Position numbers and translations under genes: made by a program | Assembly (NCBI GenBank): GCA_903832285.1 | Contig: CAILAY010000063.1 | Span: 1 to 64,000, forward strand | From: an uncultured beta proteobacterium | Lineage (GTDB): Bacteria; Pseudomonadota; Gammaproteobacteria; Burkholderiales; Burkholderiaceae_C | DNA length: 64,000 nt | Reading direction: 5' to 3' | Shown: piece after piece, positions 57,436-60,348 of the stretch | Numbering within the stretch: the stretch's first letter is position 1 | Layout: each line of letters starts with the position of its first letter | The notes under the pieces: generated by a model | What the model saw: only the letters and a program-made list of their open reading frames with translations | What the model was told of the DNA's origin: nothing | Databases searched by the model: none

Positions 57436-57567
57436 TTAAGGCAGTTCGCACCCCGATTTCTGCATTCCGTCATCCGGTCCTTGGCGACGGCAGGCGCACT
57501 GCGTATTCTTGCGAGCAACAAGGCGTTGACGGTCTTGCCTTTTTTGTCCCATTCCACAGGTCCAACC

Positions 57568-59574
57568 ATGTTCAAACCACTAAGTCTGCTGATCTTCAAA
57601 ACCCCCTGGTGGGCCATGCTGTTGGGGGGGGTCGTCATTTTGCTGACGCTGGTGATGTTCGCCCTGCCGTTTCAGGTGCTGCGTTTGACCGGACACGCGG
57701 ACACGCCTCAGGAGAAGAGGGCGATTCAGTTCGAGATCAATCAGGCTTTCAAGGACGGCGGTTTGAGTGTGGCCGAGCACATCGTCGGCGCCATGAAGGA
57801 CCGCTCCCAGGATCCGGACCGAAAGCGCGAATTGGAGCGCGCCCTGGCCGAAATCGAACGCGCCCGCAATGAAGTGAGCAGCGCCGGTGATGAAGCTGCT
57901 CAAGGGGTGCGGGAGGCTGCCGATGAGGCGCTGGGCACTGCCGAGGACGCGGCGCAGGAAGCACTGGATGTGGCACAGCAAGCGCGCCAAACGATCGAGG
58001 AATCCAGGGAGGATGCACTGCAGCGTTTGCGTGGCAAGGGTTTGGACGTGGCCGCAACAGAGCGTTCACTGGATGACTTGTTGCACGGCGCCAGGGAGAA
58101 GGAGGCCGCGGCCCAGAAGGCGTTGGACGACGTGCGGTTATCGAGAGAACGCCTTCAACAGGAGGCTCCCAAACGGCAGGAGACGACGATTCGACTTCAA
58201 ATCCCGGCGAGCGGGGCAACGGACCTCCAGGTGGGAGTTCCGTTACCACCGAATGCGGCCGAGCCAGCATTGCAGCCGCAGGTGCGCAACAGCATTCACA
58301 GCGCCGTGGCCGGCGACATGTGGCGCGTTGGCGTGGGATCGGTGCTGATCCTGATCTTCATTCCACTTTTCGTGATGGTCTTGATTGCGAAGTTTTTCAT
58401 CGACCGCTCGCACCGCGCGTTGGCCTTTGCCGAGGAGAAGGAGGAAGAGGCACAACTCAGCGACATGCGCCGACAAATGACCGAGGCGCGGTTGCAGGCG
58501 CTGCAGGCGCAAGTGGAGCCGCATTTCCTGTACAACACGCTGGCAAACGTGCAGGCGCTGACCGAGGTCGATCCGCCTGCAGCAAATCAGTTGGTGGGGC
58601 ATTTGATCGCCTACCTGCGCGCGGCACTGCCCAAGATGCGCGAGAGCACCTCCACGGTGGGACAGGAGATCGAGCGTGTGCGTGCCTACCTGAACATATT
58701 GAAGATGCGCATGGGCGAGCGGCTGGCGTTTGACATCCAGGTGTCAGACGATCTCCTGGCGCTGCCGTTTCCTCCCATGATGCTGCCCAGCCTGGTCGAG
58801 AACGCCATCAAGCACGGCCTGGAGCCACGGCGCGAAGGCGGCCGCATCGACCTGCTGGTGACGCGCGAACTGCGCGACGGCCAGGACCGCTTGCTGCTGC
58901 AGGTCAAGGACACCGGAGCAGGTCTGTCGGAGCAGAGTGTCCAGGCTGGCGGCGGCGTGGGTTTAAGCAATCTGCGCGAACGCCTGCTTGCGCTTTACGG
59001 TGCCGAAGGGCGTTTTTCCCTGGCAGCCAACACACCTTGCGGTGCCGTCGCCACACTGGATATTCCGGCGCAACCCCGCACCGCAGCAACCGTCGCCCCC
59101 GGGGTCGATGGCGCCCACACGAAGGGTGTTGAGCCGAATCGCAGCGGCTGGCGCCGGGTTGTGAATGTCACCCGCAAGACGCATGGCATGTGGGCGACGG
59201 TGGTGTCGCGCACCTTCATCATTCTGATGTTGCTGCTGGTGGTGGGATTCTTTCTCGGGCTGGTGGGGCTGTTCACGGGCTGGCTGCCGGTGGAGGTCAA
59301 CCAGTTCCGGCTGGATGGACTTGAAGGCATGGCCGTGGGTTCGCTGGGACTGTTGATCGCGTTTGGCGTACTGGCGCTGGTCATCGGTCTGCTGGTGCTG
59401 CTGCTGTATGGCATGGGTTTCCTGTTCGCGGGCTTGCTGCTTTTCATTCCGACGGTGATACTCATTTCGATTTTCCCCGTTCTGTCACCGCTGATTCTGG
59501 TTGGATTGGTGATCTACTGGTTCTCGTGGAGGCGGCGGAAGAATTCCATGAACCGCAACAGCAAGGGGTTTTGA
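57568..59574 (+). CDS. LytS-type histidine kinase with extracytoplasmic coiled segment and C-terminal multi-TM domain
   Basis: His_kinase motif LQAQVEPHFLYNTLANVQAL, N-box LPSLVENAIKHGL, DTGAGL, GVGLSNLRERL; TM segments before, between and after the catalytic core. Confidence 0.9.
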   Translation: MFKPLSLLIFKTPWWAMLLGGVVILLTLVMFALPFQVLRLTGHADTPQEKRAIQFEINQAFKDGGLSVAEHIVGAMKDRSQDPDRKRELERALAEIERARNEVSSAGDEAAQGVREAADEALGTAEDAAQEALDVAQQARQTIEESREDALQRLRGKGLDVAATERSLDDLLHGAREKEAAAQKALDDVRLSRERLQQEAPKRQETTIRLQIPASGATDLQVGVPLPPNAAEPALQPQVRNSIHSAVAGDMWRVGVGSVLILIFIPLFVMVLIAKFFIDRSHRALAFAEEKEEEAQLSDMRRQMTEARLQALQAQVEPHFLYNTLANVQALTEVDPPAANQLVGHLIAYLRAALPKMRESTSTVGQEIERVRAYLNILKMRMGERLAFDIQVSDDLLALPFPPMMLPSLVENAIKHGLEPRREGGRIDLLVTRELRDGQDRLLLQVKDTGAGLSEQSVQAGGGVGLSNLRERLLALYGAEGRFSLAANTPCGAVATLDIPAQPRTAATVAPGVDGAHTKGVEPNRSGWRRVVNVTRKTHGMWATVVSRTFIILMLLLVVGFFLGLVGLFTGWLPVEVNQFRLDGLEGMAVGSLGLLIAFGVLALVIGLLVLLLYGMGFLFAGLLLFIPTVILISIFPVLSPLILVGLVIYWFSWRRRKNSMNRNSKGF

Positions 59575-59577
59575 CAC

Positions 59578-60348
59578 ATGACATTGCGCGCCATCATTGC
59601 CGAGGACGAACCGATACTTCGAGCCCAACTCAAGTCCAAATTGGCCAGGCTTTGGCCTGAACTGCAGATCGTCGCCGACGTGGGCGACGGCGAAGCCGCC
59701 CTGGAAGCGATCGACGCGCATCGGCCGGAGCTGGCATTTCTGGACATCCGCATGCCCGAGATGACGGGCGTGGAAGTGGCGCGCAGCATCGCTGCCAACC
59801 CTGATCTGAAGTGCCATGTGGTGTTCGTCACTGCCTTCGATCAGTACGCTGTCGAGGCCTTTCAAACCGGCGCTGCGGACTATCTGCTCAAGCCCTATAG
59901 CGACGATCGGCTTGGACTCACGGTGCAGCGACTCAAGGATCGGCTTGCGCAACAACCTGCGGCCCCGCAGGACCTGCAGGCGCTGGTGGCACAAATCAGC
60001 GCGCAACTCAAACCCGAGGCTGAGCCGCTGCGCTGGATCAAGGCCAGCGTGGGCAACCATCTGCGACTGATACCGATTGACGAAGTGCTGTTCTTTCAGT
60101 CAGACGAAAAGTACACACTGGTTGCGACCCGGGAGTTGGACGCCTTGATCCGCACTCCCATCAAGGAATTACTCGAAGGCGTGGACACGGCAAGGTTCTG
60201 GCAGATCCACAGGTCCACCATTGTGAATGCCAGTGCGATCGAAGTCGTCACGCGCGACCTGCGCGGCCAGGCCTCGGTGCGGGTGAAGGGACGCAAGGAA
60301 AACTTGAGCGTGAGTCGGCCTTTTTCGCATCTGTTCAAGCAGATGTGA
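59578..60348 (+). CDS. LytTR-family response regulator
   Basis: Receiver domain AEDEPILR...LAFLDIRMPEMTG...DYLLKPYSDDRL, LytTR domain ...QIHRSTIVNASAIEVVTRD. Confidence 0.93.
   Translation: MTLRAIIAEDEPILRAQLKSKLARLWPELQIVADVGDGEAALEAIDAHRPELAFLDIRMPEMTGVEVARSIAANPDLKCHVVFVTAFDQYAVEAFQTGAADYLLKPYSDDRLGLTVQRLKDRLAQQPAAPQDLQALVAQISAQLKPEAEPLRWIKASVGNHLRLIPIDEVLFFQSDEKYTLVATRELDALIRTPIKELLEGVDTARFWQIHRSTIVNASAIEVVTRDLRGQASVRVKGRKENLSVSRPFSHLFKQM

Follow-up and report, generated by a model that had tools for sequence, protein, structure and literature searches.

The 64,000-nucleotide stretch of DNA that we analyzed (hereafter, the window) carries a gene that is best read, from its sequence, as a natural fusion of a LytS-type histidine kinase with its operon's membrane partner, a protein with four transmembrane segments (four TMs). 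Sequence comparisons establish the fused architecture, its conservation in one clade, the homology between the kinase tail and a separate operon protein, the purifying selection that acts on this tail, and conservation of an adjacent LytTR regulator. We consider it likely that the fused module acts as an accessory protein, regulating the kinase within the membrane as the separate protein would, at a 1:1 ratio. LytS-type sensor kinases are common, and the signals to which they respond are mostly unknown; the fusion points to an undescribed partner family for such sensors.

The kinase is encoded by an uninterrupted ORF, and the choice of start codon is backed by orthologs that likewise open with MF at this position. 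From N- to C-terminus, the protein comprises TM1, an Ala/Glu-rich helical segment, TM2, PF06580 followed by the HATPase domain, and, beyond a variable linker, a hydrophobic tail. The features of the two-gene locus, with the evidence for each, are as follows.

57568..59574, forward strand: LytS-type histidine kinase with a C-terminal four-TM module fused on, 668 aa (ORF translation, Pfam, orthologs)
57616..57672, forward strand: TM1, residues 17-35 (hydropathy)
57706..58161, forward strand: Ala/Glu-rich helical extracytoplasmic segment, residues 47-198 (AlphaFold helices, composition, pN/pS)
58333..58389, forward strand: TM2, residues 256-274 (hydropathy)
58486..58725, forward strand: DHp/His_kinase domain PF06580, residues 307-386, with invariant His319 (Pfam, homolog alignment)
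58783..59073, forward strand: HATPase_c, residues 406-502, with the invariant N-box ENAIKHG (Pfam, homolog alignment)
59077..59157, forward strand: variable linker, residues 504-530 (pN/pS 0.88, length variation)
59158..59538, forward strand: fused four-TM module, residues 531-657, homologous to the relatives' separate operon gene (hhalign, pN/pS, AlphaFold)
59215..59271, forward strand: module TM-a, residues 550-568 (hydropathy)
59278..59325, forward strand: acidic extracytoplasmic loop with a short beta hairpin, residues 571-586 (two short model strands, net charge)
59326..59532, forward strand: module TM-b, TM-c and TM-d, residues 587-655, then RRRK (hydropathy, positive-inside charge pattern)
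59578..60348, forward strand: cognate response regulator, REC plus LytTR (PF00072, 2.1e-22; PF04397, 1e-18)

Pfam detected His_kinase (1.8e-21) and HATPase_c (PF02518, 2.3e-8) in the window protein, and the phosphoacceptor His, which sits in EPHFLYN, is invariant across 15 homologs. These two domains, together with the adjacent LytTR response regulator, identify the gene as a LytS-type kinase, as the preliminary description of this DNA had proposed. Ending the polypeptide after the HATPase domain is usual for LytS kinases, though not strictly defining; the window kinase extends ∼165 residues beyond this point, with four predicted TMs. The earlier account of the N-terminal sensor part also stands, with hydropathy, composition and AlphaFold helices (residues 47-79, 83-157 and 162-198) agreeing on a helical segment between TM1 and TM2. 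Ala makes up 21% and Glu 15% of residues 84-200, which have a net charge of -10, and pN/pS over residues 1-249 was 0.36 among five genus members. The similarity of this segment to the corresponding segment of the operon-type kinases described below did not rise above that of a reversed control.

The preliminary description had also held that the C-terminal membrane module was real and foreign to ordinary LytS kinases. Full-length orthologs are carried by four further genus members (71-78% identity), by a single additional genus within the family (58%) and by a second family within the order, and a separate collection yielded 14 tail-bearing loci, mostly from betaproteobacterial MAGs and overlapping partly with the same genus genomes. 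In a tree of the core domains, 25 tail-bearing kinase sequences formed one clade (support 97/93), which was recovered in every bootstrap tree. Among the five genus members, pN/pS was 0.25 for the tail, 0.23 for the catalytic core and 0.88 for the linker, and by this measure the tail is under purifying selection within the genus, of a strength like that on the kinase core. The single clade and a tail pN/pS near that of the core rule out an artefactual or decaying extension, and a fusion of two genes by sequencing error is ruled out because orthologs from independent assemblies share the tail. The architecture is thus real, rare and conserved.

Its rarity was evident in several searches. When 399 genomes sampled from the order were searched with a tail profile, 15 had a match: 13 in kinase-sized ORFs and 2 in small stand-alone ORFs. 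The tail is accordingly not a general possession of Burkholderiales LytS kinases. In a sample of the phylum, this profile matched only the window's own genome, and plasmids gave neither a full-length nor a four-TM match. A broader module profile, run on a sample of the class, matched outside Burkholderiales only two genomes of one other family (L114, L115), as stand-alone genes of which neither lies beside a kinase. A known domain in the tail was ruled out by Pfam, NCBIfam, PDB-sequence and PDB-fold searches, none of which gave a match; the N-terminal coil likewise had no Pfam match. In the open-access literature, we found no publication on a kinase with a C-terminal four-TM architecture.

In many relatives, LytS-LytTR operons contain a separate gene for a four-TM protein of ∼135 aa, in the order kinase, four-TM, regulator. 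In the window the order is kinase-plus-four-TM, then regulator, and the fusion occupies the same place in the operon as the separate gene. The preliminary description was right in those structural details that could be tested and missed the origin of the tail, which is a homolog of the gene between kinase and regulator. The arrangement of a four-TM ORF immediately after a LytS kinase came to light through a weak profile match in locus L009, and was then found by inspection in L008, L013, L014 and L015. A family-wide search seeded with these five operon four-TM proteins found the protein in 47 of 251 genomes, representing 27 of 141 genera. The gene abuts the kinase stop codon in all of the 30 best loci, with a 4-nt overlap in 23, a 2-nt gap in 4, and an offset in the automatic start call in 3. 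A LytTR gene follows immediately in 28 of the 30, counting L106, where it is at the edge of the locus sequence; it lies 1.1 kb downstream in L090 and is absent from the locus sequence in L100. The family-wide search detected no separate four-TM copy in the fusion-bearing genomes G000, G002 and G003. In L010 and L012, LytS kinases belonging to the operon clade lack a four-TM gene, which indicates that the partner is dispensable.

Comparison of profiles built from 24 tails and 30 operon proteins with hhalign gave a probability of 97.4 and an E-value of 1.2e-11 over 110 columns. Reversal leaves composition and hydrophobic periodicity intact, and reversed profiles gave E-values of 0.05-0.13; unrelated VanZ and SSF proteins from the same loci gave 0.15-0.23. 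The two small stand-alone ORFs mentioned above led to a third family, of ∼127-aa membrane proteins in another genus, which was matched by both the tail profile (3e-15) and the operon profile (2e-16), with reversed controls at 0.003. Members have in common a short strand-turn-strand loop on the extracytoplasmic side, a basic C-terminus and a Pro that precedes the last TM; most also have a Trp or other aromatic residue near the end of that TM. On this sequence evidence, the tail is homologous to the operon four-TM protein. The stand-alone homologs (L072-L077, from genus g182 and its neighbours) are not near a LytS kinase, so partnership with a kinase is not a general rule for the module family. 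Several of them lie near queC-like and metallophosphoesterase-like genes, which were named by eye.

The number of TMs in the module was deduced from hydropathy and charge. A simple 19-residue scan marked tail segments at residues 550-568, 595-613 and 631-649, while family-averaged hydropathy placed a single TM at about 550-568, dipped at 575-587 and then showed ∼60 continuous hydrophobic residues at 590-649, leaving room for three further TMs. The hydropathy curve, the net acidic loop and the net basic C-terminus are common to tails, operon proteins and stand-alone proteins, and the acidic loop and basic C-terminus, combined with a cytoplasmic N-terminal side, require an even number of TMs, hence four. 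In the AlphaFold model of the module (pLDDT 91), TM-b and TM-c run together as a single helix of 51 residues, which makes the b/c turn a provisional assignment. Invariant positions in the module include G, P, Y and W, and no charged residue is found among the invariant TM positions. In the linker, the distance between two fixed residues, P500 and W542, ranges from 38 to 57 aa across the family.

In the core tree, fused and operon-type kinases fell into distinct groups, which places the origin of the fusion outside the sampled operon clade. It is possible that an ancestral pair was common to both groups and was followed by losses, or that the module was recruited twice. The same membrane protein is linked with LytS kinases both as a neighbouring gene and as a fusion, which is the usual argument for joint action, and the fusion, as a natural statement of joint working, assigns a partner to a small membrane protein family that has no Pfam match. 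We regard it as an evenly balanced proposition that these genes make up an undescribed three-component LytS/four-TM/LytTR system of the Burkholderiales, in which the four-TM protein would serve the kinase as its sensor or brake in the membrane; by gene fusion, the window lineage would have reduced this system to two components. The main value of the finding is that it indicates, for many related operons, a third component that can be put to the test.

Upstream of the kinase gene, two candidate control elements could be read.

57443..57471, forward strand: candidate LytTR-type direct repeat, AGTTCGCAC at 57443-57451 and CATTCCGTC at 57463-57471, period 20 (by inference)
57481..57509, forward strand: candidate sigma-70 promoter, -35 TTGGCG (57481-57486), 17-bp spacer, -10 TATTCT (57504-57509) (read from sequence)

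The candidate promoter is conserved in the G002-G004 orthologs. The direct repeat is imperfect, is kept only in part upstream of the genus orthologs, and lies 9 bp upstream of the candidate -35. Its placement resembles that in LytTR regulatory systems, whose repeats lie ∼10 bp ahead of -35, and this suggests, by analogy, that the regulator may drive its own operon through these putative repeats. The sequence TGCAWTCCGTC is found again ahead of the kinase in L002, L003, L006 and L029; a match to the single motif somewhere in the window would be expected in 13 of 100 shuffles. A regulon could not be derived from the candidate operator: there are few exact TGCATTCCGTC sites per genome, and only the kinase's own is kept at the same gene across several species. 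The other shared TGCATTCCGTC site falls within a block of sequence that is conserved from end to end and is coding-like in appearance.

Three groups of known systems bear on how the fused protein might work. LytS/AlgZ-type kinases (PF06580) such as BtsS (PMC10653868) share with the window kinase the His_kinase and HATPase core and a neighbouring LytTR regulator. Compared with these, the window kinase lacks a multi-TM N-terminal receptor, having instead two TMs around the helical segment, and continues past the HATPase domain into the additional four-TM module. Accessory membrane proteins of kinases, which are often repressors, have been reviewed, among them the transporter of BceS and the SafA protein of PhoQ (PMC8534201). 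By analogy, here too a separate membrane protein would set kinase activity; the partner differs in belonging to an unnamed four-TM family and in being fused to the kinase C-terminus in the window's genus. In HdrRM and BrsRM, a LytTR regulator is held off by a membrane protein, and the two genes form an operon with the regulator first, no kinase, and repeats ∼10 bp upstream of -35 (PMC6193735). The likeness lies in a small multi-TM protein encoded with a LytTR regulator; the imperfect candidate repeat just upstream of the candidate -35 may be a further one. Unlike HdrRM/BrsRM, the window system has a kinase, placed first, and a regulator with a REC domain, and its membrane module is upstream or fused, without DUF3021 or DUF2154.

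In the reading that we prefer, the module would regulate the kinase from inside the membrane, as the separate protein would, with the 1:1 ratio set by the fusion. Most likely, it would hold the kinase low until the bilayer, or the helical segment together with the acidic loop, reports an envelope change. The released kinase would then phosphorylate the LytTR regulator, which probably would also drive its own operon through the direct repeats ahead of the promoter. A kinase dimer would have twelve TMs, consisting of the sensor pair around the helical segment plus the four-TM module on its loose linker. The module may work as a partner on a tether, making contact with the sensor TMs or with the catalytic domain, a contact that the separate protein has to make untethered; we favor this over a rigid mechanical link between catalytic domain and module, because the linker is loose and fast-evolving. 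We also favor a repressive sign and a brake that would be released by envelope change, by analogy with the frequent repression of kinases by accessory membrane proteins (PMC8534201). The earlier suggestion of a kinase core tethered at both ends, and gated by the state of the membrane or envelope, is possible, and the length range and pN/pS of the linker suit a loose tether better than a rigid transducer.

An unlikely alternative is that the main target of the module is the LytTR regulator and not the kinase, with the regulator being sequestered at the membrane in the manner of HdrM/BrsM-type inhibitors. The position of the separate gene, between kinase and regulator and adjoining both, would fit this, as would the precedent of membrane inhibitors of LytTR regulators (PMC6193735) and the LytTR-like repeats ahead of the promoter. 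However, the fusion is to the kinase and not to the regulator, the known systems have no kinase and place the regulator first, and neither DUF3021 nor DUF2154 was matched by any of 15 tails or 26 operon proteins.

We think it quite improbable that the tail is a passive anchor that serves only to hold the catalytic domain to the membrane, without a part in signalling. Although a loose linker and TMs whose invariant positions include no charged residue would be compatible with such a role, two TMs already fix the kinase in the membrane, conservation of the module is as strong as that of the core and includes invariant G, P, Y and W, and the separate-gene form cannot covalently anchor a kinase.

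Finally, it is very improbable that the tail is an unrelated, lineage-specific extension resembling the operon protein only in hydrophobic-helix composition: all of the sequences are Leu/Val/Gly-rich, and a direct comparison with five operon sequences reached only 5e-6 over 48 columns, but the larger profiles far outscored their reversed and unrelated controls, and both matched the stand-alone family.

In one operon, the slot between kinase and regulator is filled by a DUF2807 (head GIN) envelope protein (L011:2298-3017, E 1e-45) in place of the four-TM gene, and this slot seems to be taken by different envelope proteins. Most relatives retain the adjacent REC-LytTR regulator. Beyond it, conserved neighbours were considered and set aside as local synteny with no evident functional link; they are an SSF transporter, an ABC1 kinase, VanZ and a hexapeptide protein in one lineage, and DnaK/GrpE in the genus. 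At two loci (L031:9181-11176 and L033:3560-5606), a second LytS/LytTR pair, without the tail, adjoins the fused kinase.
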